From: Auricularia sp. M13
Taxonomy: Eukaryota > Basidiomycota > Agaricomycetes > Auriculariales > Auriculariaceae
Length of the DNA: 64,000 nt
Reading direction: 5' to 3'
Assembly: GCA_037042915.1 (NCBI GenBank)
Contig: CM073198.1
Coordinates: forward strand, 992,001 to 1,056,000
Under the pieces are notes generated by a model. That model ran no database searches. It saw nothing but the letters and a program-made list of their open reading frames with translations, and was not told where the DNA came from. The translations under genes and the position numbers were made by a program. Positions 5,790 through 64,000 of this stretch are shown one piece after another; the first letter of the stretch is position 1; the number at the start of each line of letters is the position of its first letter.

Positions 5790-6700
5790 GCCCGTTCTGC
5801 CTGTGCTTTCGCCGTCGCTCGGACTAGCTTTTAGTCGGGCGCCAACGGATGCAGTGCGTTCTGTACGCTCATCCAATCAATGTGTACATTCCTGCTTAAA
5901 CTGGTTATCAGTTCAATGAACTGACGCGTTCAAAGTTCGTGTCTTTTGTCGACCCTTGCAGCCCGGCGTTCTAGCCATGATGCTCCGAATACTACTTCCG
6001 TCCCAAACACCAAAGTTGCCGACTACTTTCTGAAAATCAAACACGATATTGGGACTGCGCGCCTACGGCTGCTTGTCCGGTACAGCAACACGACGTCCAC
6101 CCGCTCCGCCAACTGCTTGCATCGAACCAGCACGTCTGCGAAGACTGCCCGCGACTCCATAAACACGCTATCAAACCCGCAGCAATGATCCAATTGACGT
6201 CCTCATCACCGCGCTCTCCTATATCGTTGCAACCGGGCTGACTGTCGGCGTGCCTCTCCTCAGACAGTCTGATGCCGTGGACAAGCACAGCGTCTTCCTT
6301 GAGTATGCCGCCGAGAGTCTGCGTCCCACGCGCAGCAGACGGGACACCGCGATGCGCGATACGGCCGCATTTCACCATCTTCATCATCGGACTCGACCCG
6401 TACGCGCGCATAGACGACATAGCGCGCTTCCTCGCCGGCTACGAAAACGTCCTTCTTGCCGTGCTCGAGCGCCTCGACATCGCGTGGCCTAGCCCGCACG
6501 GTCCTACTGCCCACGCGTTGTGCAGCAGATCCGTGCGCGAGCTGCTGTGCGCGCTGCGCACCCAACTCTGTCGGCCACGCAACTGCCGCGGAACGTCCTG
6601 CGCCCACATCCATCGTTACGCACGCTCGCGCGAAGCCGCCATTCTTTTCGAGCTTCTCTCGTCCGGCTGCTGCTGCTCTGGCATAGGCCCCAAGTGATTC
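5790..6700 (+). pseudogene. Decayed MYND-family relic
   Basis: Three plus-strand pieces match the family in order but in different frames. Near 5791 RCPFCLCF resembles the N-terminal CCPYCF box. At about 6085-6270 the pieces LRQLLASNQHVCEDCPRLH and NDPIDVLITALSYIVATGLT match paralogue segments such as LRTRLRQNQ and DPFDLFINALFF. At 6380-6690 GLDPYARIDDIARFLAGYENVLLAVLERLD matches the GxExxFLxALER region, followed by an ALRTQLCRP segment. The WPxxxxxLFP box and the C-terminal MYND finger are missing, so there are internal and 3' deletions plus several frameshifts. This is an old, non-functional copy oriented like its neighbour at 7.4 kb. Confidence 0.7.
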
Positions 6701-7320
6701 CATTGGTTTGTGAAGGCCCGTTGCCTTCGCATTAGCTTACGACCATGGTGCAGTCGGTGCTCATTTTCGCCATATTTTTATTGTTTCCCTTCAGATCTAG
6801 CTGCTCGACCCATTGTCCTTTCCCGAATGGGAAACTCTTGTTAGCATCGCTGACTGGCTGAGGGAGAAGTGTGGTGCTAAAACGTAAGTCAGGGCCAACT
6901 TTCTGCCATTCACGTTCAGAACAAAGACCCACTGGTGCAGCGATAGGATCGATATCGGTGGGAGCATCGTAATCACAGCAGAAAGTGTACGCCAAGGCGG
7001 ATTTGTCATCATAACGTGGTGCAGAACTGTGCGATCCTGTGTGCCGCGTGTGCACGATCCCACTACACGACCGCGCGAGGCCTCATCGGTCTGCCTCCTC
7101 TCATGAACCTCTACGATGCTTTTTCATATCATCCACTCCAGCAGAACTCGCGTACGTGCGCGTGCCCGCTATCTCGCCCAGCCTCGATCCAGGGACGGCG
7201 CCAATTTGTGCACCACGATTTGCATGCGGCGTGGTTCTGACAGGTCACGGGTCGCTGAGTCAAGATCTTCCGAAACAATAAACACACCACTTTGGAATCG
7301 TGGTGGAAGCGCGGCTCGGC

Positions 7321-7329
7321 TATAAAAGG
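7321..7329 (+). promoter_or_regulatory. TATA box of the 7.4 kb MYND gene
   Basis: TATAAAAGG lies 68 bases before the ATG at 7389, a normal distance for a fungal TATA promoter. Confidence 0.65.
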
Positions 7330-7388
7330 CTCGCACGAGGAGAGCTGCTCAACTCGACCCAAGCTTCTGCCTCTCCCTAGCGCCCGAG

Positions 7389-8813
7389 ATGTTCAAGAGC
7401 GGCAAGTCGAAGAAGTCTCCCTCATGCGACTGCCCTCCCGGAAGGCATGGTGTGTACCTCGTTGACTGCCTGCACCGCACGTTGCGCTGACTTTCTCGTT
7501 CAAACGCAGCGCTTTCCTTTACCCAGATTATGGGAGGCGTTGACAATCTCCTGCGCGAGGTGGACGATCCCGGAAACCCACGCTGCTGCGCGGCTTGCCT
7601 GGAGCAGTGGGTCACTGACTTCGGGAATTGCGAGACCGCGGTAGACGAGGTCAAAAAGGGCAAGCATCAGTTCTTTGCGGCCGCCTTGGCCGTCCTCTAT
7701 GCGCTCCATGGACGGCCCATTCGTCCCGTACGCGAGCAGCTCGCCGTCATCGAAACATCCTGTCCCAACCGCATACGCCACGGCCGCCACATCGTGCCTG
7801 GCGTCGTTGTCTACGAACGATTTATCCAGTACATTTTGCTCTGCGTCTGCTCGGGGCTCGTGCTTGGTTCGCGTCTTCTAGACGATTACCCATACTTCAG
7901 CAAGAAGGCGCACTGGCCGACGTCGATCGAGCAGCTTTTCCCCTTCGGATTCGAGCGCGGCGTCGACGTAATGGTCTACTGGTGCTGTGCGGGCTCCCCC
8001 GAGGAGGCTTTCCTACTGCTCGCCAAATGCACGTCTGCCGCACTCGACTCCATCGTGCCGCTCATTACAACCGACCCGCAGCGCGTCCGTCTGCTCTGGG
8101 CGATGATGCACCGATTCTCCACGATTCCCGTCGACTGGCCGCCTGCCATCCCTCTGCCGTTCCCCAGGCCCGATGGAATCCGCTTCCTTTACAATCAGAA
8201 CGGGAAACCCGGCCTCGTGAACAATATGCTGAGCATCATCCAATCCGTCTCGTCCACGCGCTCCGACGTTCTGGACCGCTTCGTATCGGGATTGGAGCGC
8301 CCCCTGCTCGCCTCGATCGAGATGATCCCCCCTCGCAGACCGGGCGAGCCTCCCGTGCACATGGACCTGCCGTCCTTTGCTGCCTACCTGCGCGCGCGCA
8401 TCGGCCAGGCCTCCCTTCCGCCCGACACACGCTCAACTGTGCAGCTGGTATACGAATACGTGCAGGCAAACGAGACCCGCGGCAAGAAGTGCTGTTCGAA
8501 CCCTGCGTGCCGCGCCAGGCAGCTCGCAGCAGGCGTCGAGCGCCTCTTTCCGCTGTGCAGCCGCTGCACATTCGTGCAATACTGCGACCGCCAGTGCCAG
8601 CGCACGGACTGGGCGAGCCACAGGCTCGTCTGTGCCAGTCTTATGAAATTGGAACACAACCTCGGCAACCATGACGGCAGCGAGAAGGCTCTCAGGCAGG
8701 CGTGGGAGGCATGCGACTTCGACCCGATGGATGTTGGTCGCATCCGTAGCTGGGTGCTTGGAAGCGGAATGGTGCCCGCTGCTTCCATTGGCTCAGGTTA
8801 TCGCCATGGTTAG
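7389..8813 (+). CDS. MYND zinc-finger family protein (7.4 kb copy)
   Basis: Model: exons 7389-7449 and 7510-8813, 454 residues. The 60-base intron starts GTGTGT, ends CAG and is phase 1, at the same place as in other copies. The short first exon ends CDCPPGRH, similar to CKCGNGSH in the 33.8 kb copy, which supports this start. Domains: the NPRCCAACL box about residue 35-45, KKAHWPTSIEQLFPFG about 155, and a MYND finger about 346-395 (CCSNPAC...LCSRC...YCDRQCQRTDW...HRLVC). MYND fingers bind two zinc ions and usually mediate protein contacts. The catalytic SET domain found in some MYND proteins is absent. No membrane segment or signal peptide is evident. Function unknown. Confidence 0.88.
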
Positions 8814-9088: not shown

Positions 9089-9850
9089 CTACATGCGACT
9101 CACCATGCGCCACACGCCGATCTTGAATTCCGTGGGGAGGAGGTTGTCCATCAAGGCCCATTTCGCGAGATACATCGTCTGCTCCTCCGTCAAATACGTC
9201 CCGGCGCAATAAGCCTGCGTGAAGTCCTCCTTGGACATTGCGTGATCCCCGCGCAGAAGTCCAGCCGCAAACAGCTTACAGAGCGCCGGGCAGATGATCT
9301 TGTGTGGCGCGTCGTAGCTGCCCACCTTCCAATCGCGTTCCTGGCAGTCGCCACTGCAGTAGTGCAGGAATTTGCACTTGCCGCACTTCTGGCTTTGCCG
9401 CTCTCGCCGCCGCTGACGCGGATTTCGCATCCTGGACCCGAGCAGATGCGCGAGTTGCGGCGTAAATCGATGTAGATATAGACCGCGTCGCCCAATGTGA
9501 GGCCTCGGTGGTGGTGCGGTGCATGGAGGGCGTACGCCTGTACTGCTCAATGAGCGGATGGATCGGGCGGAGGTCTCCCATCGAGCAAAGCGCGGAGGCC
9601 GCGGCGACAAGCGTGCGCCTGTGTGTTTCGTCCCTGAAGCTAGGGTTTGCGGCGACAGAGAGCATGGCGTCGTGCAGCACGCGTTCGTAACTGCGGGCAA
9701 AATTGTTGAAGTCATTGAGGTGGCCATCTAGGCCTCCCTCAAAGATGCTTATCCCAGAGAAGAACAGGCACTTGGGGCAGAAGCCTGGCAGAAGCCTGGC
9801 GCCGCCGTATTTTGCAGCTGGGCTGTGAAGGTCTCTGCAGCGGCGACCAT
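9089..9850 (-). pseudogene. MYND-family relic, internally deleted and frameshifted
   Basis: Read from right to left, an N-terminal GFCPKCLFF box (about 9770) runs almost directly into GGLDGHLNDFNNFARSYERVLHDA, so about 200 residues of the middle region are missing, including the WPxxxxxLFP box. After EQYRRTPSMHR the frame shifts once, to read SRICSGPGC, and shifts again before CGKCKFLHYCSGDCQERDW, the MYND finger. The C-terminal helix LAKWALMDNLLPTEF is intact. Its closest relative in the window is the relic at 22.3 kb, which shares the LHDxMxxxAANP segment and also shows frame changes around SGPGC. Both belong to a subfamily with no intact member here. Confidence 0.75.
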
Positions 9851-10896: not shown

Positions 10897-12319
10897 ATGG
10901 GACGCGGTCTCCGTTCCAAGCACAAACTGCCCTATTGCGACGAATGCGAGCATCGAATCAGCCGTGAGTACCTCACGTGCGCTGTGTGTGATGCATGCTC
11001 ACCAGCTGACCAACACAGAACAGTCTGTTCCCGATCTGCGCGCAAGGACAGACGCGTTCTTGCTAGCGGTTCAAGATCCTGCTCGTCCGCAGTGCTGCAG
11101 GGTGTGCTTCATGCTTATGACCGAAGACCTATACGACTGTCCGGACGCGATCGACGAATTCAAGCAGCAGAAAAATCATCTGTTTGCAGTGTGTCTGGAG
11201 ATCGTCGACGCGCTCGAGCGTGAGCCTATTTCACGCGTGCGGCAGAGTCTCAGCAACGCGCAATCAGCCTGCCCAAAGCACCGCTTCTTCGTCGACGGCA
11301 AAGACGTCTTTGTACATTTCGTGGCAGAAGTTTTCCATCTCCTCAGCATCGGCCTCGTCAACGGCTCGCGCACGCTCGAAGCGTACCCCCTCTCCAGCAA
11401 GAAAGCGCACTGGCCGACTTCGCTCGACCAGATGTTTCCCGCTGGCGTCGAGCGCGGCGTCGACGTGCTGATCTACTGGTGCTGTGCCGCCGCCGACCCC
11501 TTCCATCCGCTCCTCATCCTTCTGCTCTACATGCATTCAGCCACAGCCGTCGTCCTCCCCGTCGTAATGAGTCCGCCGCGCCGCGAACGGCTCGCCTGGG
11601 CCATGGTGCAAGCGATGTCACCAAAACTGGTCGCCTGGCCGGGCGGCGTGCCCCCGTTCTGCCCGCGCGATAGCCTCAGCACGAGCTTCGTGCGCCGCGG
11701 GACGCCCATCGTCGTGCAGCGCATCGTGGACACGATCAACTTCATCTCGACCTGCGGCCGCACGCACTCGGATACGGACTCGGACCTGCTGCGCCTCATC
11801 GCGGGGCTGGAGGTGCCGTTCCTCGTCGCCGCCGAGCGCGCGAAGACGGCGCTGCCGCAGCTCACCGCGCGGCAGGGCGAGGTTCTCGTGTCGTTCGCGG
11901 CGCTCCTGCGCGCGCGGCTCACACACAACGACACTGCCCCTCCGCGGCCCACGGCGCTGCTCGTCTTCGAGTACGCGCGGCGCGCGGCCATCCCCGCGAA
12001 CGCGTTCTGCACGTGCGGCGCGCAGCAGATCTCCGCGAGCGGCACGCGGAGGTTCTTCGTGTGCGCGACGTGCCGCCTCGTGCGCTACTGTCACCGCGAC
12101 TGCCAGCGCGAGGACTGGAAGGCCGGCCACAAGCAGCTATGCCCCGTGCTTTCCCGGCTGTTCGCGCGCTGGCAGTCTGTCGCCGGGGACCGTGACATAT
12201 ACGACTGGGACATCTTTCAGCGTGCGTGGGCGCAGTGCGCGCTCGACGAGGCTGAAGTCACGCTGCTTCGCAACTGGGTGGTTGCCAGCGGGAAGGTTCC
12301 CGCCATTTCTCTGCAATAG
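10897..12319 (+). CDS. MYND zinc-finger family protein (10.9 kb copy)
   Basis: Model: exons 10897-10963 and 11019-12319, 455 residues. The 55-base phase-1 intron has donor GTGAGT. The first exon (67 bases) equals in length that of its twin at 18.6 kb. Motifs: PARPQCCRVCF at about residue 45, KKAHWPTSLDQMFPAGVERGVDVLIYWCC in the middle, a GLEVPFLVAAERAK segment, and the MYND finger about 351-394 (CTCGAQQ...CATCRLVRYCHRDCQREDW...HKQLC). The coding part from 11600 is very GC-rich. It ends NWVVASGKVPAISLQ, nearly the same as the twin. The two are a segmental inverted duplication. Function unknown. Confidence 0.9.
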
Positions 12320-18559: not shown

Positions 18560-19985
18560 CTATCGCAAAGAAATTGCAGGCGCCCTCCCGCTCGCAACCA
18601 CCCAGTTATGAAGCAACGTGACGTCGGCGTCGTCAAGCGCGCTCTGGGCCCACGCACGCTGAAAGGTGTCCCAGTCAAACTTGCCACGAGCGTCCTGTGC
18701 GCAGATCTGCGCGTACAGCCTCTCAAGAATGGGGCAGACCGACTTATGGCCGGCCTTCCAGTCCGCGCGCTGGCACTCGCGGTGGCAGTAGCGCACGAGG
18801 CGGCATTTGGCGCACACGAAGAACTTCAAGTTGCGCACGCCGCTCGCCGAGATTTTCTGCGCGCCGCACGCGGTGTGGGCACAGAATGCGTATGCGGGCG
18901 CGGTCGCGAGGCTGGCGTACTCGAAGACGAGAAGCGGCGTGGGCAGCTGCGCCGGCCCCGTCTGTGCGTTCTGCGTGAGCCGCCCGCGCAGGAAGGCAAT
19001 GAACGTCACGAGGATTTCGCCTTGCCGCGCTGTGATAAGCGGGAGCACCGTCTTCGCACGCTCCGCGGCGACGAGGAATGGCACCTCCCGTCCGGAGACG
19101 AGGCGCAGCAAGTCGGAGTCCGTGTTCGAGTAAGTGCGACCGCGGGTCGAGATGAGGTTGAGGATGTCCATAGCGCGCTCCACGAGCATCGGCGTCCCGC
19201 GCCGCGCGATGCTTGTGATCAGGCCGTCCGGTGGGCAAAATGGGGGCACGCCGCCCGGCCAGGCGACCAGCTTCGGCGACATCGCCTGCACCATCGCCCA
19301 GGCCAACCGGTTGTGGCGTGTCGTGCTGAAGACGGCGGGGAGGACCGCGGCGGTGGCTGAACTCACATACAGCCCCAGAATGACGAGCGGAGCGAATGGC
19401 TCGGCCAAGGCGCAGCACCAGTAAATCAGCACGTCGAGCCCGCGCTCGACGCCAGCAGGAAACATTTCGTCGAGCGAGGTCGGCCAGTGCGCTTTCTTGC
19501 TGGAGATCGGGTACCTTTCGAGGGTGCGCGAGCCGGAGAGCAGGCCAAGGTTGAGCAGCTTGAAGACTTGCGCCACGAATTCGTCGAAGACGTCTTTGTC
19601 ATCGACGAAGGTGCCGTGCTTTGCGCAGGTTGATTGCGCGTTGCTGAGTCTCTGTCGCACGGGAGCAATCGGCACCCGTTCGAGCGCGTCGACGATCTCC
19701 ATACACCTCGTGAAAAGGTGATTCTTCTCGAGCTTGAACTCGTCGATCGCGTCCTGGCATTCGAATAGAGCGTCGTTCATAAACCTCAGGCAGACCGCGC
19801 AGCACTGCGGACGAGCAGGATCTTGAACAGCGAGTAGAAACGCGTCCGTCTTTCCGCGCAGACCTGCTCTCGTCAGCTGGAGAGAATGTATCATGGAGAT
19901 GCCGATAGAAGTGCGCACGGCTTATACGAAGCCCGGAGTTGCTGCCATAGGGCGCAGTCTGCGGAGACCGGTGAAGGTGAGCCAT
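18560..19985 (-). CDS. MYND zinc-finger family protein (18.6 kb copy)
   Basis: Model: exons 19985-19919 and 19863-18560, 456 residues. The 55-base phase-1 intron uses GTGCGC as donor, weaker than GTGAGT in the twin at 10.9 kb; both first exons are 67 bases. Alignment with the twin shows about 15 bases missing just after the acceptor here. Motifs: PARPQCCAVCL, KKAHWPTSLDEMFPAGVERGLDVLIYWCC, a GREVPFLVAAERAK segment and the MYND finger about 350-397 (CAHTACGAQK...CAKCRLVRYCHRECQRADW...HKSVC). It ends NWVVASGRAPAISLR. It is the inverted duplicate of the 10.9 kb gene including about 400 bases of promoter. Function unknown. Confidence 0.9.
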
Positions 19986-22286: not shown

Positions 22287-23152
22287 CTAACTCACCCACC
22301 ACACGCTCGTACTCCTTCCATATGGAAACCTGCGCTTCTTGAAATACGCTGCGAGTTGCTGTTGTCGCGATCGCGACGTCAGCAGCTGCCTCTTGACGAC
22401 GCCGAGCCAGCCGGAGGCCTTCACGGTGTGCGTAAGCACGACGAACGGGCCGTACGGGTCGTTGACTGCTCTTCTCGTCGTCGGCCGCATCGTCGCAACC
22501 TTGGTGCGCACGCTGCGCTAGTGGCGCGTCCCGCTCTCCGGGTTCCCGGCGATCTCGCTGCTACCTCTCGCACGACGTCCCGTTCGTCCAGCCGATGCTC
22601 GAGGAGGCCGCGGGCATTATGTCGCAGGTCATCGGTATGCTCGTCATCTTCCGGGAGGGCCCCGACCGGCACCTGGACGACTTCGGAGGCTTTGCGTTCG
22701 GCTACCAGGGCATGCTGCACGACACGATGATCACGCTCGCGGCGAACCCCTATTTCAAGGAGGAAAATTACAACACCACGCTTGTAGGCGCGGCGTCGGC
22801 GCTGTGCTCAATGGGCGACCTCCCCGTGCACCTGCTCGTCGAGGAGTACCGGCGCAAGCCCGACATGCAGCGCTACATCACAAGCGGGCTCAACATGGGC
22901 GACATCTCATCTACATGTACATCCGCCAGCGCCGCGACTCGCGCATCGGCTCCGGGCCCGGGTGCAAGAAGTGCGTGCGCGATGGCTACGGCTGGCGGCC
23001 AGCCGCTGGAGCGCTGCGGCAAGTGCAAGTTCCTGCACTACTGCAGCCGCGAGTGCCAGAGCCTGGACTGGAAGGAGGGCGAGCACGGCGCGCCGCACTG
23101 TCACAAGATCATCTGCTCCGCGCTGTGCAAGTTCTTCGCGGCGGGTATTCTT
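22287..23152 (+). pseudogene. MYND-family relic, 5' part (split by the hAT element)
   Basis: It begins in decayed sequence (NGPYGSLTALLVVGRIVATL). From 22595 it is clear: HLDDFGGFAFGYQGMLHDTM and AANPYFKEENYNTTLVGAASALCSM, then EEYRRKPDMQRYI. The frame shifts to RQRRDSRIGSGPGCKKC and back to ERCGKCKFLHYCSRECQSLDW, the MYND finger. The N-terminal CCxxC box and WPxxxxxLFP box are lost. It breaks at KFFAAGIL, where the hAT element was inserted. Two frameshifts precede the insertion point, so the copy could already have been dead when hit. Sister to the 9.1 kb relic. Confidence 0.8.
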
Positions 23153-28138: not shown

Positions 28139-29636
28139 ATGTCCCGTATTTCTGCTGCCACACCTGAGGACCTGGAGTCCATCGACATCCCGCATTCATT
28201 CCGTATGTCGTTTGATTTGAAAGAACCTTTGCTCATTACTAATGTATCCCTTGTCGCCAGTCTCCGAGTTCGACGAGGTTTGGTGACGCATCAATGCCTT
28301 CTTGGACTCAATCGCCGACGCGTCGAACCCGGGCTGCTGCCCGTACTGCTTCGCAGTCTTGGTATACGACATAGAGTATAACGACACTGTGTGGACTTTG
28401 CTCCAACGATGCGGCCACAAGTTCATGGAAACATGTCTGAGGCTTCTGGTAATTTACACGGAGACGAGCATCCCACCGCTTCGCGAGCGGCTCCGTCGCA
28501 ACCAGATGGAGTGTGCGCACCGCGCGCAATATCACAGACACCGCCTCAATCATCCCACCAACGATCCCGTCGACATGCTTCTGCAATCCATGCTGTTTGC
28601 CATCGGGAGTGCTCTGACGAGGGGAGATCACCCCGTGTACAGCGACAGCACCAAGTACTTCCACAAGCGCAAAGGTTACTGGCCGCTGGACGTCGCGCAG
28701 CTTTTCCCGCTCGGAATTGAAAGAGGGATGGACTCCCTGGTCCACTGGTGCTGCGTACCACCGTCCGGCATTCCCTTCTCCATCCTCTCCACATTCATCG
28801 TCCTCGCCAGGCCAGTCATTCTCCCAAAACTGCTCTGTCCTCAGCGCAGGGAGCGCTTCGTCTGGGCACTGCTCCAGGCCATCACGCCCGGCTCGTCGGC
28901 GGTACCGTGGGTTCACGGCGCGCCAAGCCCGTTCACCGTCCCGGCCGGTCTTAGCGTCTCGCGCGGTCTGCGGGGCGTCTCGCGGCTGTCCGACGCGGCG
29001 CTGAGCTTCCTGAAAACCCTGCGGCTCGACGTGCACGCGCACGCCGGCGACCCGCAGCTGCTGCTCGCGGGATACGAGCAGCCGTTCCTCGGCGCGCTCG
29101 AGCGGCTCGACCAGACCCGGCCCGTGGACGAGCACTTCGACGCCGCCGCCATCTACAACATCCGGCGCTACGTCGTGGGCAACTACTGCTGCGCGCTGCG
29201 CACGGCACTCGGGCGCCCGCACGCTGAATGCCACCCGGGCCTGCACACCGCACCGAGCGCCGGACGGCTCGTTGGTCTTTTCCTCATCCGCCGCGGCCAG
29301 AGCAGGTACTGCGCGAATCAGGACTGCACGCACAGCGAGATCGAAGCGGGCCGGCTGTTTCAGCAGTGTGCGGCGTGCAAGTTTGTGCGATACTGCGACC
29401 GAGCGTGCCAGCGCTACGATTGGAAACACGGCGCACCGGCGCACAAGGCCGTCTGTCCTGCCCTGCGCAAGGTGCTAGACACTGTCGATCCATTGGTGAG
29501 CGCCGAGGAGTTTGAGGCCGGGTTTAACAGGTCTGGGCTGGATGAGAAGGAAGTCGGATTGCTGACACAGTGGGTGTGTGCCGGCAAACTCGTGCCTCGT
29601 TTGGCGGAGACAAAGATATCTTCAAATCGTGTATAG
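28139..29636 (+). pseudogene. MYND zinc-finger family gene with one in-frame stop
   Basis: Model: exons 28139-28202 and 28261-29636, 479 codons, with the family's phase-1 intron (58 bases, donor GTATGT). Exon 2 opens LSEFDEVW, then TGA at 28280, then RINAFLDSIADASNPGCCPYCF. Paralogues are open at this spot (EVTQFIDAFL). The remaining 444 codons are intact, including a WPLDVAQLFPLGIERGMD box and the MYND finger (CANQDCTHSE...CAACKFVRYCDRACQRYDW...HKAVC). No in-frame ATG follows closely, so either the gene is freshly dead, the stop is read through, or the base call is wrong. Closest to the 30.3, 33.8 and 41.6 kb copies. Confidence 0.75.
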
Positions 29637-30278: not shown

Positions 30279-30285
30279 TATAAAT
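30279..30285 (+). promoter_or_regulatory. TATA box of the 30.3 kb MYND gene
   Basis: TATAAAT, in the context GGTATAAATTGC, 53 bases before the ATG. The same context occurs before the 41.6 kb paralogue. Confidence 0.65.
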
Positions 30286-30305
30286 TGCCCTGAGCGGCCT
30301 GTACG

Positions 30306-30368
30306 ATGCTGCCAACCATTCGACCTCGAAGATGCTCTTCCTGCCCATCCGTGAAGAAGCACAAGTGA
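30306..30368 (+). promoter_or_regulatory. Upstream open reading frame
   Basis: An ATG 26 bases before the main start begins a 20-codon frame (MLPTIRPRRCS...) that overlaps the main coding sequence. The paralogue at 41.6 kb has an upstream ATG at the same distance with the same first codons (MLPAI then stop). Conserved placement suggests translational control. Confidence 0.4.
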
Positions 30369-31843
30369 ATTCTCCCTGTGGTGAGTCTTCGCATCCACAA
30401 TCATCATGTCGTCGAGCTTGTCTCATATCGGATGATCTAGTATTCACGGTGGACGAGGTCACACAGTTCATTGATGCCTTCTTGACCGCAGTCGGCAAGC
30501 CGTCCAACCCCAACTGCTGCCCTTATTGCTTTGCGGCACTCGCGTTTGATCTGGCTATCAATAATGCGGCGCTATATGCTCTGCAGCGACATGGCTACGC
30601 CTTCTGGGAAAAGTGCATAACGCTCATCGTTGATTACACCAAGGTCGACATTCCCCGGCTCCGCACACGGCTGCGCCAGAACCAGATCACCTGCAAAGAC
30701 CGCTCTACGTACCACACAAAGCGCTTGCCATATACCTTCTCGGACCCCTTCGACCTCTTCATCAACGCGCTCTTCTTTTCCTTCTTTTCCATTGGAACCG
30801 GCCTGACCAAGGGCAAACGTCCGGCCTACGGTGAAGGGAAACTGGCCAAGGTCCACTACCGCAAGGGTTACTGGCCCTGCAATCTCAACGACCTCTTCCC
30901 AATGGACATTGATCGCGTGCTCGACGGCATTCTCCACTGGGTTTGCGCACCGTCGTCGCCTTTCCCACTGTCCGTTCTGAACACTTACCTCCTGGTTGCA
31001 CGCGCCGTGGTATTTCCCGTGCTTATGGAGCAGCCACGCAGGGACCGGCTGGCGTGGGCCCTCCTGCAGGTGATGACTCCCGACCACCCGACTGTGCCTT
31101 GGCACGGCGCTGCGCCCTTCACCGTGCCCGCGGGCCTGTGCGTCCCACGGATGCTGCGGCGCGACTCGTTGCTGTGCGACATGGCACTGTACACGCTGCG
31201 GATCGTGCGGCTCGACACGCACGCGCGCACGGACGACGATGCGGTGTTCTTCGCCGGGCACGAGAGACTCTTCCTCGACGCGCTCGACCGCATGGACCTC
31301 AACGCGCGACCCGTCGTCCTCTTCGTGCCCCAATACGATGGATACAGGCGCACCGCGCTCGAAATGCGTGTCGAAGCTGTCCGCGAGTACCAGTGCGTGC
31401 TCAAGGGGCTGCTCGGCCGAGAGCACGATGATTGCGGGCACTCCACGCAGACCATGCAATCCCGCACGACCTTTATGTACAATTTCCTCACGCGCCGCCT
31501 TGAGTCGACGTACTGCTTCAACCCCACATGCGCGCGCGCCGAGCTCGACAAATACCAAACCACACGCCCGTTCCAGAAGTGCGGCAAGTGCCACATCGCG
31601 CGATATTGCAGCCATGAGTGCCAGAAGCAGGACTGGTTGCAGAATGAGCCCAAGCACAAGGAGATCTGCAAGGCCATCTCCGAGCTGGGCCGCTGCATGG
31701 CGCAAGGCAAAGCAGACGAGGTTGATTTTACAGCTAAGTTTGACGAAACCGAGTTGTTTACCTCTGAGAAGGTGGCCGAGTTGGTTGAATGGGCTATGGC
31801 CTCTAGGTTAGTCCCCCGCTGTCGTTTCCCGGCCACCAATTAG
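30332..31843 (+). CDS. MYND zinc-finger family protein (30.3 kb copy)
   Basis: Model: exons 30332-30380 and 30441-31843, 483 residues. The 60-base phase-1 intron has a strong GTGAGT donor. The first exon (MLFLPIREEAQVNSPC) matches MLFLPIVEPQPPARC in the 41.6 kb copy, which fixes the start. Motifs: VFTVDEVTQFIDAFL, NPNCCPYCF, YWPCNLNDLFPMDIDRVLDG, PRRDRLAWALLQVMTP, PFTVPAGLCVPR, and the MYND finger about 373-427 (CFNPTCARAE...KCGKCHIARYCSHECQKQDW...HKEIC). It ends WAMASRLVPRCRFPATN. The close paralogue is on the opposite strand 10 kb away. Function unknown. Confidence 0.9.
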   Translation: MLFLPIREEAQVNSPCGESSHPQSSCRRACLISDDLVFTVDEVTQFIDAFLTAVGKPSNPNCCPYCFAALAFDLAINNAALYALQRHGYAFWEKCITLIVDYTKVDIPRLRTRLRQNQITCKDRSTYHTKRLPYTFSDPFDLFINALFFSFFSIGTGLTKGKRPAYGEGKLAKVHYRKGYWPCNLNDLFPMDIDRVLDGILHWVCAPSSPFPLSVLNTYLLVARAVVFPVLMEQPRRDRLAWALLQVMTPDHPTVPWHGAAPFTVPAGLCVPRMLRRDSLLCDMALYTLRIVRLDTHARTDDDAVFFAGHERLFLDALDRMDLNARPVVLFVPQYDGYRRTALEMRVEAVREYQCVLKGLLGREHDDCGHSTQTMQSRTTFMYNFLTRRLESTYCFNPTCARAELDKYQTTRPFQKCGKCHIARYCSHECQKQDWLQNEPKHKEICKAISELGRCMAQGKADEVDFTAKFDETELFTSEKVAELVEWAMASRLVPRCRFPATN

Positions 31844-33831: not shown

Positions 33832-35303
33832 TCACGACCTGCGTTTTTCAGCTTGGTTTGTATAACCCCACGCCCAGAGAGGGTCTGGATCGCTGGCCAT
33901 GGCCCACTGGAACAGCTGAGCCTCCTCCTCCGAAGAGAGATTGCATGACGGATACGCGCTCACGAAGAGATCGTGGTCACTCACAGGATGACAAGCGGCG
34001 ACGACTCGACTCAACGTCGCGCAGACCGACTTGTGCGGCACCCCGTCCTTCCAGTCCTGCCGCTGGCATTCTCGACTGCAGTACCGGATGAACTTGCATT
34101 TGCCGCAGACTTGGAACTTCGACCCAGAAGCCTCAGGCGCACGGCACGCCGGATTTCCGCAGGTTCGCCCGTATGCAGCGTGCATGAGCGCATTCCGGAA
34201 GAGAGAGTGGAGTCTGTTCGGCGTGCGGTCGTCGTCGGGCAGCTGCGGCATCCCGAGCATTTGGCGGAGGAAGTCGAGCGACGCGACGAGACTCATCCTG
34301 ACAAAACTCGACATGTTCTCTGCTGCCGGGCTGTTCAAGATGCCTTCAAAGGTGCTGATAAAGAGAAGCTCGTAGCCAGCAAAGAAGCGCGCCCCTTCGT
34401 CTGGCTCGGAGACGCACGAATGGTCATGCAACATGGTGATGAACACGATCACCACTTCGAGCGTCTTCGGTGCCCCGCCTCGCAGACTAGTCGGAACAGT
34501 CAGACCCGCAGGCAGGGTACATGGTGGAGGTCCGTTCCATGGTACAGGTCCCGTTGTGAGTGCCTGGAGGAGTGCCCATGCGAGCCGTTCGCGGCGGGGT
34601 GTCGCTAGAACATAGGGCATCATAGGCGCCCGGGCTATCGCAAGAAACAATCCCAGAAGCTTGAAAGGTGCGAAGGACCGAGGACTACAGCACCAGTCAA
34701 TCAGGGAGTCGACACCGCGCTCCAATCCGAGCGGGAATAGCTGCTCCAGAGACGTAGGCCAGTGGCGGAGACGTTTCACGAAGCTTTTCGTGCTTCCGGT
34801 AGGCCCAGGCTTCTGAACGGGCAAGTTTCCCTTTTCGATGCCGACGACGATGCAGTTTTCCAGAGAGAGTATGAGCATGTCAAACGGGTCGGGGAGGTTG
34901 CGGTGGATCGGGCCTCTGTGTAGTGTCGCGCGATCAGGACACCTGACCTGATTATCGCGCAAGAGCTGGAGAATGCGGGGAATGTCGCCGTCACGGTATA
35001 CGGTGCGCAGGATGACGCAGGTTTCCCAGAACTGATGCGTGTGAATCTTCAAGGCGTCGATCACCAGCGCGCATTCGGAGATCTCGTGCGCGAGGATGGC
35101 AAAGCACCGCGGACAACACTTGGGATTTTGCAGATCGGACACGGAATCGAGAAAAGCCTGCACGCGAGCTTGCATTTCCTCGCGGGAGAATACTGATGTG
35201 GCGTTTAGCTGTGTCGAGATGGACTGCAGATGGACAAACCGTGCGAGCCGTTTCCGCACTTGCAGGGAGGCCGCGCGTTCAATCCAGACCTTCTGGTCGC
35301 CAT
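33832..35303 (-). CDS. MYND zinc-finger family protein (33.8 kb copy)
   Basis: Model: exons 35303-35240 and 35192-33832, 474 residues. The 47-base phase-1 intron (donor GTTTGT, branch GCTAAAC, acceptor CAG) is in the family position. The first exon ends CKCGNGSH, like the 7.4 kb gene, which supports it over a start inside the intron. Motifs: VFSREEMQARVQAFLDS, NPKCCPRCF, HWPTSLEQLFPLGLERGVDS, PRRERLAWALLQALT, and the MYND finger about 364-412 (CGNPACRAPE...VCGKCKFIRYCSRECQRQDW...HKSVC). It ends with an unusual basic tail (NQAEKRRS). It converges tail-to-tail with the 32.3 kb gene, 118 bases apart. Function unknown. Confidence 0.88.
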
Positions 35304-36854: not shown

Positions 36855-36887
36855 TCAATTGCAATCGCTTTCCTGTTCACCGCCGCG

Positions 36888-41637: not shown

Positions 41638-43136
41638 CTACGACCGGCAGCGGGGGAGCAACCTGCAAGCCACAGCCCATCGCACCAACATAGCGACATT
41701 CTCGGGGGTGAACTCGTCCGTCTGTGCGAATTTGGCTGCAAAATCAGCCGTAGTCGCATCGTTCTCCGCCATGCGTCCCAGCGTGGCAATTTTGCCGCAG
41801 AGCTCTTTGTGCTTGGGCTCATTCTTGGACCAATCCTCCTTCTGGCACGCTCGGCTACAATACCGCGCGAAATGGCACTGGGCGCACTTCTGGAACGGGC
41901 GCATGGTTTGGTATTTGTCGAGCTCGGCCCGCGCGCAGTTGGGGTTGAAGCAATAGGTGGCATTCATGCGTCGGATGAGGAAATGATGCACCACGCGCGC
42001 GGGGGACGACACATCATGTGCGGCGGGTGCGCAAGTGCCGTGCTCCATGCCGAGCAGAGCGCGCAACATGCAGCGGTACTCGCCAATAGCTCTGGCGCGC
42101 AAGGTGAGGACGGCGCGCCTGTTACCGGAAGAGTAAGGCATGGGAGAAGGGACGGGCTGCGCGGCGTCCACGCTTTCGAGCACGTCGAGGCGCTCGAGCG
42201 CATCGAGGAATAGTGCCTCGTGCCCCGCGAGGAAGAGAGCGTCATCGTCCGTGCGCGCGTGCATGTCGTTCCGCACAATGCGCAGCGTGAAGAGAGCCAT
42301 GTCGCACAGCATTACATCGTGTCGCACAAGACGCGGGACGCTGAGACCGGCGGGCACGGTACAGGGCGCAGCGCCGTGCCAGGGCACCGTCGGTAGTTCG
42401 GGGGTCATGTGCTGAAGGAGCGCCCACGCCATTCGGTCTCTGCGTGGCTGCTCCATGAGTACGGGGAAGACGACGGCGCGCGCGGTCACAAGGTATGTGT
42501 TCAGGAGGGACAATGGGTAGGGCGAGGACGGTGCGCAAACCCAGTGAAGGATGCCGTCGAGCACGCGATCGACTTCCATCGGGAAGAGATCGTCAAAGTT
42601 GCGCGGCCAGTACCCCTTGCGGTTGTGGAACTTGGCTACTCGTCCCTGGGTGTACGCTGGTCGCTTGCCCTCGTATAGACCAGTTGCGACGGTGAAGAGG
42701 AGCGCGTTGAGGAAGATATCGAAGGTGTCCGAGGTGACAAGCGAAAAGCACATCTTGTGGTACGTGGAGCGTTCCTTGCACGCCATCTGGTTCTGGCGTA
42801 GCCGTGTCCTGAGCCGGGGGATGTCGGCCTTGGTGTAATCAATAATGAGTGTGATGCACTTTTCCCAGAAGTCGTAGGCATCTCGTTGCAGAGCATCCAG
42901 TGCCGCAGCGTTGTGCCCCAGATCAAAAACTAGTACGGCAAAGCAATACGGGCAACAGGAAGGATTCAACGGGTCGCGGACAGCAAGTAAGAATGCTGCG
43001 ACACGTTGCATCAACTGTTCGACCGTAAAAACTAGATCAGACGAGATGATGTTAGTGGTGAAAGGTGGAAATTCAAATTTGAGAGCTCACCACATCGCGC
43101 TGGGGGCTGTGGCTCCACAATTGGGAGGAAGAGCAT
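41638..43136 (-). CDS. MYND zinc-finger family protein (41.6 kb copy)
   Basis: Model: exons 43136-43091 and 43031-41638, 479 residues, with a 59-base phase-1 intron (donor GTGAGC, acceptor CTAG). First exon MLFLPIVEPQPPARC. Motifs: VFTVEQLMQRVAAFL, NPSCCPYCF, YWPRNFDDLFPMEVDRVLDG, PRRDRMAWALLQHMTP, PCTVPAGLSVPR, FLAGHEALFLDALERLD and the MYND finger about 374-427 (CFNPNCARAE...KCAQCHFARYCSRACQKEDW...HKELC). It is the sister of the 30.3 kb gene in protein, intron, TATA box, upstream ATG and about 150 bases of promoter, on the other strand. Function unknown. Confidence 0.9.
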
Positions 43137-44704: not shown

Positions 44705-46163
44705 CTACATATCCGGAAAGTAATTCCAATGCATGGCACCCCGGGGGCCCACGGCGAAGAAAGTCATCATGACAACAGGACCGCGCTATAGTCAGGCCGA
44801 TATGTCAATATCAATGATGCAAAGCCCGAAAAAGACTCACCAGCTCGCGCGCGCGCTCGCGGTACTCCCAGAGAAGGGCGTCGTGCGCCATCATAAAGTC
44901 AAGCGTGGCCTTCCATTCAGTATACGACATCGAATTGACCGGCCCGCCAGGGACGATCTTGCGGAGGGCGGCACAAATGTTCTTGTGGGGCACCCTGCCG
45001 TCGGCGGCGTCGGTCCAGTCGCGCCGCTGGCACTCGTCGCTGCAGTAGCAGAGTTTTTTGCAGCCCGCACACTGTTTGAACACGGCGTCGGGCGCGACGG
45101 TGTGCGCGAAGCGGCCGCAGCCTGGGCCGGCGCAGCGGCGGCGGCACTTGAGGTCGAGGAGGAGGTTGAAGCGGCTCACAATGCCGGGTAGGTCCTCCGG
45201 AATGTCGCGGTACTCGAGCGCGCGGGCGGGAAGAACGTCCACGGGCTGCTTGAGGTATTGCTGGAGCAGGATGGCGGGATTGGCGAGGTTCTTGTACGTC
45301 GCATCCGTTTTGCCGGTGCTCATCCCGTCGAGGAATGCCATTCCGGCGAGGACCGCGGCGAAGACGTCTGCCTCGCGGCCGCGGAGAACTGAGAGCAAGT
45401 CGCTGCCACCAGAGTCTGGGCCCCATTTAAATGTGTTGAGCAGGCCTGCGGCTCCGATTATGCCTTGGAAGCGCGCCATCCAGGCCGGGCTGCGCTCCTC
45501 GAGATCATCGGCCTGCTCAGCAGCGTCGCGCCCGCGGAGGCGGTCGATGATGAGGTTGACGACGCTGGCGCGGAGCTCGGGCGATTGATTGACGGTGTCG
45601 AGGACAAACGGAAGAGCGACGCGAACAAGGAGAGTAAGGACGATGATGGGGTACAAGGACGTCACAATTTTGCCCCAGCGGACGAGAGATGTCAATGCGG
45701 CGAGAGGTCCGTCCGGGAAAAGCTGGTCGGACGACGAGGGCCAGAACCCACGGCTGGTCGCAAATGGCTGGCGATTACGCTCGGCGCGTTCGTCAGCTGA
45801 GTCGCCTTGACCTGCGAGCACCAGGTAAAGGCAGCGGCACGCGGTGTCGACGAAGCCGTGCACGACCTCCGCCACAGTATTCTCGTCAATGACGGTGTCG
45901 GCATGCACACGCCGGCAGCGGTCAAGATTGTCGTCGAGGGTCTGCCCCAGCGCGTCGATTTCGTCGTCCGAGAGAGCCTTGATGACGACCCCGACGCAGG
46001 CGTCCCAGAAGGGATGGCAATCAGCCCGCACCCTGTCCAGTTCGCGCGCGGTCGCGGCCTGGAGTAGGTCTGCGAAGTAGGCGAAGCATCCGGGGCAGCA
46101 CGACGAGGGCGTGGGCCCAGCAAGACGGGAGGCGAGTGCGTTCGCGCGCGAGACGAGGTCCAT
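44705..46163 (-). CDS. MYND zinc-finger family protein (44.7 kb copy)
   Basis: Preferred model: exons 46163-44841 and 44785-44705, 467 residues, with a 55-base last intron (donor GTGAGT, branch CTGAC, acceptor TATAG). Without splicing the frame stops at 44811 after 450 residues. The spliced end RGPVVMMTFFAVGP parallels FGTTVLVASPLAVVG in the 57.4 kb gene, whose spliced length is 468. Motifs: SSCCPGCFAYFADLLQ, FWPSSSDQLFPDGPLAALTS, and the MYND finger about 341-396 (CAGPGCGRFAH...CAGCKKLCYCSDECQRRDW...HKNIC). This branch lacks the N-terminal intron. It shares protein and about 600 bases of promoter with the partial gene at 63.5 kb. Function unknown. Confidence 0.87.
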
Positions 46164-55489: not shown

Positions 55490-56881
55490 TCAGGTGGAGG
55501 AGCGGAGCAGAGAAATACCGAGATCGCCAAGGACACTGGAAGGTACCAACCCTGCTACAATCCCCCAAGTAAGCAACTCCTCGCAATCCGAGTCAGCGAT
55601 ATTTGCACGCTGGTACGTCTCTATGAACCGAGGGAGGTTTCTGCTTTCCACAGATACACCGGCATCGTTGAGCCTGCAAAGGACCGGACACAAAGCCTTG
55701 TGTGTGACACAAACATCGAATGCTTGCCCCTGAGGGACCTTCCAGTCGTTCTGCTGACACGCCCGTCCACAGTAGCGGACAGTTTTGCACCGCGCACACG
55801 TCTGCTTCCCAACCTCGCGGCATCCTGCGGCGGAGCATGTCTTGGACCGTGACTGGTGGAATAGAATCATAAACACCAGCTGAACAGCGGCATTGGTGCC
55901 TTCCGGAAGGTCCAGTTTGCTCTTGTACCAGAGAATACGTTCGTGGAGCGCGGACTGAGGAAGCGACAGCCGCTCGTGGATATGTGCCGCGGTGGAAGAA
56001 AGCGTGAGGAGGAGCATCTCGTCGTCAATCAAGTTGGAATCCAGTGCGGAAATGATTGCTGGGTAGAGGGCGCGCTCGTGACCAGAATAAAGAGTGGCCA
56101 AGTCGACCAGCGAGGCACCTTGACCATTTGCAATGGTGTCCATCAAGTGTGTCGCAGACTGCTGAGGCACTAGTCCGAAAGGCTGGCCGGCTGTCGCCAA
56201 ATCTGCAGAAACGAGGGATGACATGGCTTTCCCGGAGAGCGTCGCTATAAGCGTCTCCATGAGGAGATCCTTTTGAGGAGGTGCCAAGAGATGCGGTAGA
56301 ACCTCGGAGCGCGCAACTTCCAAAAGCCCCACGAGGAAGGGAACAGCAAACGGCGATAGGAGCGTGCGACACCAGAACACGTACGACTGCACGCTAGACC
56401 GCGCGCCAAAGGGTAGAAGCTGCTCAGGGGCCGTTGGCCAGGTGCCCTCCCGCGCCTTGGCCTTGAACCAGCCTTTCGCCCTGACGTTGCGGATAGCGCT
56501 GCTCACGCAGCTGATGAGGGTCGTTATGAACAGCGCTAGCGGATCGTCGATAGTCTGTGCATGCACAAAACCATGCCACTCTGGATTGACGCATCTCGAA
56601 TGGTTATCGTCAAGTTGCGCCCTCAATCTGGGTATATCCGAGTCGCCGCGAGGTGCTGCGAGAACGCCGATGCATGCAGAAAAAAAGTCGTGTTTCTCCA
56701 GGCGCAGATAAGATAGCATCTGGTCGCAATCGGGATTCCTGAGTGTTGCAACACAGAGTAGCACGCAGAGAGGGCAACATTGCGGTTTCTGCGGGTCTCT
56801 GAGCTGAGGCGTCAGAACGTCCGTCGCGTAGCGGACTACGTCGACTTGGATGTGGCGACCGTCCGCAGTGGTTCGACCCAT
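55490..56881 (-). CDS. MYND zinc-finger family protein (55.5 kb copy)
   Basis: Single exon, 463 residues, from the first ATG; the frame extends further upstream only to a GTG. Motifs: DVLTPQLRDPQKPQCCPLC, TWPTAPEQLLPFGARSSVQS, YSGHERALYPAIISALDS and the MYND finger about 348-399 (CSAAGCREVGKQTCARCKTVRYCGRACQ, DW, HKALC). It is the sister of the 32.3 kb gene and shares its subfamily features (no N-terminal intron, tight first zinc knuckle, conserved upstream GCGGAGTTTGCGGATG block). The gene lies between two copies of the SAP-gene tail. Function unknown. Confidence 0.9.
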   Translation of the reverse strand: MGRTTADGRHIQVDVVRYATDVLTPQLRDPQKPQCCPLCVLLCVATLRNPDCDQMLSYLRLEKHDFFSACIGVLAAPRGDSDIPRLRAQLDDNHSRCVNPEWHGFVHAQTIDDPLALFITTLISCVSSAIRNVRAKGWFKAKAREGTWPTAPEQLLPFGARSSVQSYVFWCRTLLSPFAVPFLVGLLEVARSEVLPHLLAPPQKDLLMETLIATLSGKAMSSLVSADLATAGQPFGLVPQQSATHLMDTIANGQGASLVDLATLYSGHERALYPAIISALDSNLIDDEMLLLTLSSTAAHIHERLSLPQSALHERILWYKSKLDLPEGTNAAVQLVFMILFHQSRSKTCSAAGCREVGKQTCARCKTVRYCGRACQQNDWKVPQGQAFDVCVTHKALCPVLCRLNDAGVSVESRNLPRFIETYQRANIADSDCEELLTWGIVAGLVPSSVLGDLGISLLRSST

Positions 56882-57511: not shown

Positions 57512-58917
57512 CCCGAACATCCCAAGAGGAAGAAACTATATGCAAGTACACAAAATCAATGCCAGCGGTCACGATCCAAAGTAGAAGCAGGGCTCACGAT
57601 TTCACTTGCTCGCTTCCTGAGCCCCCATGGCAGCGCATCGTGTCCGAGAGTGAAGGAACAGAGATGGTACTGCTCCCAGTGTCCGCACTCCGAAAACGTC
57701 TTTTCGTAGTTCCAGGAATCGATGAGTCTGCGAATGGCCGCGCACATGTTTTTGTGGCTGGTCTCCAGGTCACGGTTCTTGCAGGCCGGACTGCAGTAGC
57801 TCAGGGTTTTGCACCCGGGACAGAACGCGGCTTCGGGCTCAAGATTATGAACGAAGATCCCACAACCCGGGCCGTCGCAACGCCGGCGCTCCTGCTTCCT
57901 GAGAGTGCAGAGGAAGCAGACCACAACATCCGCCATATTCATCGCAGGGTGGCGAAACGCAAGCACAGGCGGCGGGAGTACGCTGATGGCGAGCTTCAGA
58001 CGCATTTGGAGGACGTTAGCGACCGACGCAAGCACACTGTACGTCGTTTCCGTGTTGGGAATGTCGTCGATGAGCTCTATGGCGTTAAGGACGACTGGGA
58101 AAAGGTCTGATTTGTGGCCATCGATAACAGCGATCAGGTCGTCCTTCCTAGCGTCAGGGCCAACTTGGAGAACACGGAAAAGGGATGCGACGGCGCGGAT
58201 GCCGCCAACTCGCCAAGTCAATATAAGGCTGGGCGATGGGTTATTGGGAAGGACGTAGTCCTTGCTTTTCGTGTTGATTCCGCAGAGACGCGCTATGATA
58301 AGCTTGACGAGACTCGCGCGGAGCTCCATCGATTGGAAGAGCGCGCTGAGGAAGAAGGGCAGCGCAATACCGACAATGTCGCTAAGGACCACAACGGGGC
58401 TAGCAGACGGAATTTTGGAACCCCAGTGTACCAGCGCGGCGAGAGTGGCAACCTGTCCCTCCGGGAAGAGCTCGTCCGTCGTCGAGGGCCAGTAATTGTC
58501 GCGCCTCGAGAACACCTTGAGACGACGGTCTGAGCGCTGGTACGCCGAAAGTCTCCCTCGCGCGAGACCGTGGTGAATGCAGCGGCAAGCAGCGTCCAAG
58601 ATAGCGGGGACGACGTTCTGGAAAGCCTGCCCACTCTCCGTTGCTGCAGTAGCGGCGGGTTCGTAAGTGCAGCTGGAGTGATTACGGCGGAGGACACGAC
58701 GCAACTCGTCGACGTCGTCATCAGAACGGGTTTTGATGACGACCGCGATGCACGCTTTCCAGAAATCGCCGCAAGCAACGCGCAACGCGTCAAGCTCGCT
58801 TTCGGACGCAGCTTGGAGCCGAAGTGCGAAGCGCAGGAAGCAACCTGGGCAGAAGGACACCTGTGACGTCTGCGCCCCATTGGCGGAGAGAGCGTGTGCA
58901 GCAGCGATGAGATCCAT
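57449..58917 (-). CDS. MYND zinc-finger family protein (57.4 kb copy)
   Basis: Preferred model: exons 58917-57598 and 57535-57449, 468 residues; the 62-base last intron has donor GTGAGC and acceptor ATATAG. Unspliced, the frame stops at 57556 after 453 residues. Motifs: VSFCPGCFLRF (only the second Cys of CCxxC), YWPSTTDELFPEG, and the MYND finger about 343-391 (CDGPGCGIFVH...FCPGCKTLSYCSPACKNRDL...HKNMC). The Trp usual after the seventh ligand (DW) is Leu here. It belongs with the 44.7 and 63.5 kb genes but is the most diverged. Its upstream region keeps four of the AGGYGCRCCT-type sites. Function unknown. Confidence 0.85.
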
Positions 58918-62719: not shown

Positions 62720-62869
62720 GTTGCAGTATGCACCGCAAAATAATATGATATGCCCGCTAAAAGCCAGAAAGTTGAAAATATTACTGTATGATTCTTCCTG
62801 ATAATTTGACTCCTGTTTTATTTCGAGCTATGAAGAGAGTTATTCCTGAATCCTGATGGCATGCCATCG

Positions 62870-63478
62870 GCGGACGACGGAGAGTCCCGACCGACCCTTC
62901 GTCCGCTTCATATCGCTCGCACGATGGCCGGACGCGAAAACGGCGCCAGTTCTGCCTGGAGTCAGAACGCGCTTCTCAACCACATGAAATAAATCCTGGG
63001 CGGACTCCATGCGCAATATCTGCACGAAAATCAAAGCCCTGCTATCTGAGCGACGACCGCGCCAAATCCCAGTATCGAGACCTCGAGCAGCCTGTTCCTG
63101 GAGCGCAATATGCCCTGCTTGCCAGGCAAATGCCATTTTGGCTGTGGCGCTGTGGCCTTCGCATTAGATTGGCGTGCGAGTCGACGCGCTCCTAAGGTGC
63201 ACCTAGAAAGCAGGATGGCGCGCCATCCATTGCCCAGGCGCGCCTGCTGCGCACCGATTGCCGGTGTCCCACATGGTTCCGTGATGCCACGCTGATTAAG
63301 GAACCCATCCGAGCGCTGCAGGTGCGCCTGGGGGCCCAACAGTCGCGCCTGAGCTGCGAGCTGGGGCGCCAGCTCGCGAGCAGGCGCGCCTGCCGGATAG
63401 GCACGCCTTGCGTCGCACATGGTTCACTATCTTCCGAGCACATGGGCGCGGGGCGACTGATTTTACCATTTATACCGC
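62870..63478 (+). repeat. Upstream block duplicated (inverted) at 46223-46830
   Basis: About 600 bases aligned with the region upstream of the 44.7 kb gene, continuing into the coding sequence. Both end in CATTTATACCGCTGGCTGGG, the probable core promoter. The MITE at 62.2-62.7 kb lies just outside the shared part. Confidence 0.8.
63195..63408. promoter_or_regulatory. Array of eight AGGYGCRCCT-type palindromes (63.5 kb gene)
   Basis: Sites start at 63195 (AGGTGCACCT), 63216 (TGGCGCGCCA), 63236 (AGGCGCGCCT), 63320 (AGGTGCGCCT), 63341 (AGTCGCGCCT), 63362 (TGGGGCGCCA), 63382 (AGGCGCGCCT) and 63399 (AGGCACGCCT). Number, order and spacing mirror the array at 46285-46498, and most sites stay palindromic despite substitutions. 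Confidence 0.65.
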
Positions 63479-63537
63479 TGGCTGGGTTCGGACTTGCGAC
63501 TTGCTGCTCGTTTTCCCCCCACGCCAGACTCAGAGCC

Positions 63538-64000
63538 ATGAACCTCGTCTCTCGCGCCAACTCCCTCGCCTCACGGCTTGCTGGGCCCGCGCCCCCGTCG
63601 TGCTGCCCGGGTTGCTTCACCCGCTTCGCGGACATGCTCCAGACTGCGACAGGCCGCGAGCTCGATGCGGTGCGCGCTCAATGCCATCCCTTCTGGGACG
63701 CCTGCGTCTCCGTCGTCATCAAGGCTCTCTCGGACGAGGAAGTCGACGCGCTCGGGCAGACGCTCGACGACAACCTCGACCGCTGCCGCCGCCCGCACGC
63801 GCAGACTGAGGCGGAGGTCGTGCACGAGTTCGTTAACACCGCCTGCCTCTGCCTTTTCCTGGTGCTGGGCGGTCAAGGCGACTCGGCGTCAGAGCGCGCC
63901 GAGCGTGAATGCAAGCCGTTTGCGACCAGCCGGAATTTCTGGCCCTCGTCGTCGACTCAGCTCTTCCCGGCTGGTCCTCTCGCCACCCTCACGGCCCTCG
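63538..64000 (+). CDS. MYND zinc-finger family protein, 5' part only
   Basis: It is open from the ATG at 63538 to the window end (154 codons). MNLVSRANSLASRLAGPAPPS is nearly the start of the 44.7 kb protein, followed by CCPGCFTRFADMLQ, FWDACVSVVIKALSDEEVD and FWPSSSTQLFPAGPLATLTA. The MYND finger must lie beyond the window. Like its twin it has no N-terminal intron. Nothing in the visible part suggests damage. Confidence 0.85.
   Translation, partial: MNLVSRANSLASRLAGPAPPSCCPGCFTRFADMLQTATGRELDAVRAQCHPFWDACVSVVIKALSDEEVDALGQTLDDNLDRCRRPHAQTEAEVVHEFVNTACLCLFLVLGGQGDSASERAERECKPFATSRNFWPSSSTQLFPAGPLATLTAL

Follow-up and report, generated by a model that had tools for sequence, protein, structure and literature searches.

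A genome-wide family of MYND-finger proteins with a conserved N-terminal cysteine site and a predicted helical body, clustered in Auricularia sp. M13

Introduction

Genes for proteins with a MYND zinc finger (zf-MYND, PF01753) have been counted in several fungi, with a mean of 41 per genome in seven Agaricomycetes compared to 1-26 across nine further basidiomycetes (PMC4469406, table 3) and 25 gene models in Moniliophthora perniciosa, where the domain is 20th in the normalized Pfam ranking (PMC2644716). Ganoderma lucidum expresses 50 zf-MYND genes, counted as transcription factors with stage-specific expression, and 13 are differentially expressed, 10 of these 13 peaking in primordia or the fruiting body (PMC9386254). 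A MYND gene adjoining a receptor gene in Schizophyllum has been labeled a zinc finger transcription factor (PMC8161036). Fission yeast Mub1 combines an Armadillo-type domain with zf-MYND (PMC8645331), and budding yeast Mub1 is an adaptor bringing Ubr2 to Dsn1 (PMC3567142). Here, we analyze a family of MYND-finger genes found as an array in the window, by which we mean the whole stretch of 64,000 nucleotides at positions 992001-1056000 of contig CM073198.1 of Auricularia sp. M13 (genome of 52.1 Mb in 14 contigs).

The window family and the Agaricomycete zf-MYND proteins both have a MYND finger above the Pfam cut-off and a large copy number. However, the published accounts consulted count the domain only, whereas an N-terminal C-x2-C site and a body with a WP-LFP box are features of the window family, and no description of this architecture was found in the open-licence literature searched. 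With Mub1, compared by its description, the family has in common a helical body followed by a MYND finger, although the body of fission yeast Mub1 is of Armadillo type and that of the window family is helical in structure models. Mub1, whose Aspergillus counterpart is SamB, is single-copy, whereas the window family occupies at least 57 places in the genome. For the SMYD and ETO/DEAF1 proteins, only MYND aligns with the family in PDB profile searches, and their SET and other domains were not matched in it by Pfam scans. As a kind, the family is known among the numerous zf-MYND proteins of mushrooms, and its architecture beyond the finger appears to be unnamed in the sources searched. A preliminary description, made from the DNA letters, had called it apparently undescribed, which holds for the architecture in that literature but not for the abundance of zf-MYND proteins in Agaricomycetes, already published.

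Results

Extent of the array and of the family

The window contains eleven stop-to-stop open reading frames (ORFs), 440-519 residues long, that are mutually alignable over most of their length. A profile hidden Markov model (HMM) built from them was run on the six-frame ORFs of 144 kb around the window and gave full-length matches at 7494, 10892, 28287, 30311 and 32271 on the plus strand and at 18566, 33850, 41644, 44814, 55520 and 57574 on the minus strand; the 477-615 bits of these eleven follow by construction, as the same ORFs built the profile. A twelfth copy (63520-64863, plus strand) extends past the window end; it was outside the profile-building set and scored 377 bits, and nine copies in the flanks, none used in building the profile, scored 163-371 bits. 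By this search the array extends beyond both sides of the window, its limits lying near -28.8 and 110 kb (window coordinates), and the cluster spans about 140 kb.

The family is genome-wide and not confined to the local array. A tblastn search with a single copy as query returned 98 matches in 72 groups, one of them with two genes, that is, 73 places distributed over 11 contigs, 23 of which fall within that 144 kb region. The matched length was at least 400 nt at 57 of the 73; the remaining 16 places, two of them window relics, matched over less than 400 nt and may partly be other MYND genes. These counts are lower bounds drawn from the best-scoring candidates, and the relic at 6.2 kb is not among the 73. 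A Pfam zf-MYND search gave 93 matches genome-wide. A set of 37 members combined 21 cluster ORFs and 16 dispersed ORFs, omitting L042 (stop-split), L048, L005 (no family match), further partial ORFs and duplicate copies of the same gene. Ten further loci were added and the incomplete L030 was removed to give a set of 46 members, in which the MYND segment is missing from L006 and scrambled in L046; alignment A4 consists of 28 members drawn from these sets.

A conserved N-terminal cysteine site, a WP-LFP box and a MYND finger

Three cysteines far from the MYND finger, C79, C82 and C137 (numbered by the stop-to-stop ORF of copy 33832), are invariant in all 46 members and perhaps constitute a putative second zinc site. 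The preliminary description had reported a CCxxC box here; the conserved cysteine box stands, but its true form is C-x2-C, the first cysteine of the "CC" being kept in 26 of the 46 members. C111 was considered as a fixed fourth zinc ligand, a role weakened by its absence from 11 of the 46 members at six tree positions (present in 35). Four of these 11 make up one clade and carry C140 in its place, three residues past C137. In the remaining seven, a histidine follows C137 at a distance of at most 10 residues, but this is also true of 33 of the 35 members with C111.

The body, about 250-300 residues and predicted to be helical, contains the motif WP-x5-LFP-x-G. W197, P198 and P206, the W, the P and the last P of this WP-LFP box, are each present in 46 of 46 members, in agreement with the middle box first described. 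The C-terminal MYND finger was equally borne out, exceeding the Pfam gathering cut-off (22.7 bits) in all 11 window ORFs. Each of its ligands (C397, C402, C415, C418, C424, C428, H439 and C443) is found in 44-46 of the 46 members, and a single eight-ligand pattern fits 42, the exceptions being 108923, 10784, L006 and L046. The first MYND cysteine pair, usually spaced C-x2-C, is spaced C-x4-C in 38 of these 42 parsed members.

Domain and fold searches

At E (expectation value) below 0.1, Pfam and PDB profile searches matched only the MYND area, in support of the earlier claim that the middle region resembles no known domain. At E 0.1, the Pfam scan of 28 members matched MYND in 27 and a related MYND model in one, and no other Pfam domain exceeded its cut-off in the window ORFs or these 28 members. 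The rows for models other than zf-MYND itself, at E 0.004 to 0.1, lay over or beside the finger; a row for the C-terminal part of Tc5 transposase covered the MYND region in two of the 28, below cut-off (15.1 and 18.1 bits compared to 27.4). The scan of the 28 members gave no SET domain and, apart from this Tc5 row, no enzyme domain at E 0.1, and no DNA-binding domain above cut-off. PDB profile searches with 11 and 28 members returned nothing at E < 0.1 beyond the MYND neighborhood (49 rows, and the best 60 of 62), with rows for ribosomal eS31 from E 0.072 whose aligned positions run into MYND. Of a few weak rows above E 0.1, one (E 0.18), for a fusion with MIB1 RING3, falls on the N-terminal cysteine box at A4 profile positions 8-40 and is most likely a chance match.

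Structure prediction of intact copies, a check proposed with the preliminary description, gave an all-helical body outside MYND. For copies 33832 and 32217, AlphaFold models based on the 11 window sequences reached a predicted local distance difference test (pLDDT) of 78.6 and 78.2 and a predicted template modeling score (pTM) of 0.72 and 0.75, respectively. With Foldseek, none of 301 and none of 598 PDB matches of the two models reached E 0.001, nor did any of 169 matches to viral models. Many of the best 50 PDB rows per model were helical-repeat proteins, with a TM-score to the query of at most 0.28, and the best row of the second model was a designed protein (E 0.020).

Relatives were also sought outside fungi. 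A viral collection gave 61 pattern matches, none of which was a relative by tblastn. In bacterial genomes, three of 33 candidates matched (L017, L018 and L019). The match of L017 was limited to MYND; L018 and L019, whose tblastn matches start before the finger, were rejected as family members because the family profile matches their ORFs over MYND only and they are without the WP box and the N-terminal C-x2-C. MYND fingers are unusual in bacteria, and L018:1805-3073 and L019:4308-5450 (bin BP5.bin76) encode proteins with a MYND finger at the end, with neighbors that look bacterial by eye.

Branches and growth of the array

The three branches originally told apart by introns and MYND spacing are clades or sub-clades in a FastTree tree of the 46 members. 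Branch A is a clade of ten cluster copies (support 1.0), with 7491, 10784, 18560, 28287, 30284, 33832 and 41638 in the window; a phase-1 N-terminal intron can be modeled in 4 of these 7 copies and in none of the 4 other copies tested, which include the CREVGKQTC pair (32217 and 55490). Branch B (44811, 57556, 63196 and five others; support 0.96) includes the copies for which a C-terminal intron is predicted. A phase-0 GT-AG intron fits these three window members, with a similar second exon only in 44811 and 63196, and the same pattern in the other nine copies tested gave unconvincing introns in two (18560 and 28287). The CREVGKQTC pair clusters with dispersed genes located on contigs C11, C2 and C3 (support 0.97). 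By this tree, the array brings together several old lineages and did not arise in a single recent burst. The copies and relics in the window are as follows.

7389..8813, plus strand: branch A copy (ORF 7491); HMM 524 bits, MYND above the Pfam cut-off; predicted gene model with exon 1 at 7389-7449, phase-1 intron at 7450-7509 and exon 2 from 7510
10897..12319, plus strand: branch A copy (ORF 10784); HMM 560 bits, Pfam MYND, predicted intron 10964-11018; inverted duplicate of 18560
18560..19985, minus strand: branch A copy; HMM 544 bits, Pfam MYND, predicted intron 19918-19864
28287..29636, plus strand: branch A copy; HMM 576 bits; the predicted 5' coding part contains an in-frame TGA immediately before 28287
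30284..31843, plus strand: branch A copy, stop-to-stop ORF; HMM 615 bits, Pfam MYND
32298..33713, plus strand: CREVGKQTC-pair copy (ORF 32217), no intron modeled; HMM 505 bits, Pfam MYND, AlphaFold model
33832..35349, minus strand: branch A copy, stop-to-stop ORF; HMM 582 bits, Pfam MYND, AlphaFold model of 33835-35193
41638..43136, minus strand: branch A copy; HMM 602 bits, Pfam MYND, predicted intron 43090-43032; inverted duplicate of 30284
44811..46163, minus strand: branch B copy, predicted phase-0 C-terminal intron; HMM 484 bits, Pfam MYND; inverted duplicate of 63196
55490..56881, minus strand: CREVGKQTC-pair copy, no intron modeled; HMM 501 bits, Pfam MYND
57556..58917, minus strand: branch B copy, FCPGC box, C-terminal intron doubtful; HMM 477 bits, Pfam MYND
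63196..64000, plus strand: branch B copy over the right window edge (stop-to-stop ORF to 64905, 570 aa); HMM 377 bits
6242..6661, plus strand: relic, part of the middle region only; tblastn to the 28287 and 30284 copies, E 7e-8 and 2e-9
9092..9567, minus strand: relic covering MYND and a piece of the middle region, spread over two frames; tblastn best E 2e-13
22565..23152, plus strand: relic, part of the middle and MYND; tblastn best E 3e-18, DNA 71% identical to the 9 kb relic (blastn)

The list reproduces the earlier tally of eleven undamaged copies, one with a single stop and three relics (11 + 1 + 3 = 15) if the edge copy counts as intact. The in-frame TGA upstream of 28287 fits the single-stop copy of that tally; one TGA lies inside its tblastn match, and the frame is open from before the CC box to the end.

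A self-comparison of the region showed the four closest window pairs to be inverted duplications in every case, three of them including flanks: 10470-12319 / 20420-18560 (74% alike), 30151-31824 / 43308-41645 (73%) and 44619-46815 / 65082-62875 (79%), and, for the gene only, 32358-33603 / 56854-55639 (68%). Two pairs in the flanks are in direct orientation. The local birth and death of genes proposed at the outset is thus seen in inverted duplications, relics and a stop copy. Elsewhere in the genome, the far-apart family members C1:896895 and C1:4809444 have a protein identity of 94%, and C5:2703675 and C5:3207514 have equal match scores, which suggests recent long-distance duplication.

Selection on the finger and the body

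The ratio of nonsynonymous to synonymous substitution rates (dN/dS, by NG86) was calculated from the CC box to the end for the 14 most alike pairs, which share members, two of them including the incomplete L030 and several having dS >1. It ranged from 0.23 to 0.51. The preliminary description had considered local birth and death of genes typical of families under diversifying selection and named dN/dS across copies as a check; the ratio is below 0.55 in 14 of 14 pairs, and gene-wide diversification is not seen. For MYND only, dN/dS was 0.14-0.35 in the 10 pairs in which it was computable and nonzero, and because it was below that of the N-terminus plus middle in 9 of these 10, the finger is held while the body drifts faster. 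We read this as purifying selection that is relaxed in the body. In 40-codon sliding windows over five pairs, nonsynonymous differences per site (pN) equaled or exceeded synonymous ones (pS) in some windows of L032/L033 and 10784/L030, two young pairs in which these windows rest on few changes, and pN = pS was reached once in 44814/63196, so individual codons may be under site-level selection.

Neighboring genes and mobile elements

Genes like GRASP55/65, with Pfam matches and DNA about 75% alike, lie at 14066-14701 and 36677-38377 (both plus strand), with a further GRASP-related fragment near 21.1-21.4 kb (21119-21409); an unrelated gene has thus been copied inside the array. An F-box/LRR-like gene with weak Pfam rows only (39790-41397, plus strand) has an inverted partial copy, 66% alike, at 66179-66757 (L013), beside a copy of the nearby MYND gene, and a second F-box-like ORF, sub-cut-off in Pfam, is at 4379-5491 on the minus strand. 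Ordinary genes also stand amid the MYND copies, with open frames matching multicopper oxidase (51242-52213, plus strand) and the C-terminal N-myristoyltransferase domain (59986-60849, minus strand). Two adjacent ORFs at 25316-26770 (plus strand) look by eye like parts of a hAT-type transposase, with no transposase match in Pfam. An ORF of 524 aa at 1618-3192 (plus strand), by eye like a tyrosine recombinase and with no Pfam match, has 32 tblastn matches in the genome including itself, and the two strongest besides the self-match have 83% and 62% identity; directly downstream is a 120-bp direct repeat, 99% identical (3259-3757), and ORF and repeat possibly form a mobile element.

Discussion

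We tentatively favor, by analogy, an expanded family of Mub1-like intracellular adaptors with a helical body and a C-terminal MYND finger. This preference is based on the likeness to Mub1, the conserved finger and the drifting body, on the helical models, on the three invariant cysteines far from the finger, on the stage-dependent expression of the Ganoderma lucidum zf-MYND genes, and on the lack of any enzyme or DNA-binding Pfam domain at E 0.1, apart from the weak Tc5 row in 2 of 28 members. The family would have grown partly through segmental and inverted duplication in what is probably a mushroom-forming basidiomycete. The conserved MYND finger would dock a short peptide of a shared partner, such as a co-repressor or a ubiquitin-ligase component, and the faster-changing helical body would bind different clients, as Mub1 bridges Ubr2 and its substrate.

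Several points weigh against the adaptor reading. The partner, expression and localization of the window genes are putative; the Ganoderma lucidum genes are compared by their zf-MYND domain and may or may not be members of the window family; and the N-terminal zinc site is proposed from conservation. The ARM/HEAT-like Foldseek matches are not significant (best row E 0.035, TM-score to the query 0.24), so an Armadillo body is not established. In the pair 30284/41641, the dN/dS of MYND (0.35) is not below that of the body (0.34), the MYND ratio of L032/L033 is zero, and three further pairs gave no computable value. Finally, 18 of 21 cluster copies contain a 19-residue stretch with a Kyte-Doolittle mean >1.6 that may be a membrane helix, which makes "soluble" an assumption; since it lies within a predicted body helix in copy 33832 and often contains Arg or Pro, we read it from the model as a probable buried core.

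The array could also be the outcome of neutral birth and death, with dispensable copies under weak purifying selection in a duplication-prone region and no shared selected function of the cluster, which we consider possible but fairly unlikely. The GRASP-like (14066, 36677) and F-box/LRR-like (39886, 66179) genes were duplicated too, and relics, one stop copy and dN/dS values of up to 0.51 fit such a history; against it, dN/dS stays under 0.55 throughout and zinc ligands are seldom lost among the 46 members. That the proteins are transcription factors, or chromatin co-factors acting via MYND, strikes us as unlikely. The stage-specific Ganoderma lucidum genes and the Schizophyllum gene cited above carry the former label, but the label rests on MYND; no DNA-binding domain exceeded the Pfam cut-off, Tc5 rows below it being confined to two members, and short basic stretches resembling nuclear signals are present in only 4 of 21 cluster copies. 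Very doubtful, in our judgment, is a role as recognition or silencing genes under diversifying selection, for example in self/non-self discrimination or against transposons. A high turnover of local copies, ORFs within and next to the array that resemble transposons by eye, and the windows with pN equal to or above pS would agree with this, whereas the gene-wide dN/dS, the spread of members over 11 contigs instead of a single locus and the lack of a further Pfam domain above cut-off argue against it.

A bolder form of the adaptor reading, which we regard as improbable, is that the body, with its C3-plus-one zinc site and WP-LFP box, is a new helical domain of mushroom-type fungi, and that the fifty-odd or more paralogues are swappable adaptors that would route different clients, in the course of development, into a single machine docked by MYND. 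Mushroom-forming fungi have many zf-MYND genes, and the published counts that we found stop at the finger. The defined second cysteine site, the WP-LFP body, the branches and the clusters provide a profile with which the family may be found, named and knocked out, and would lead from the mere counting of domains to an adaptor hypothesis that can be tested.

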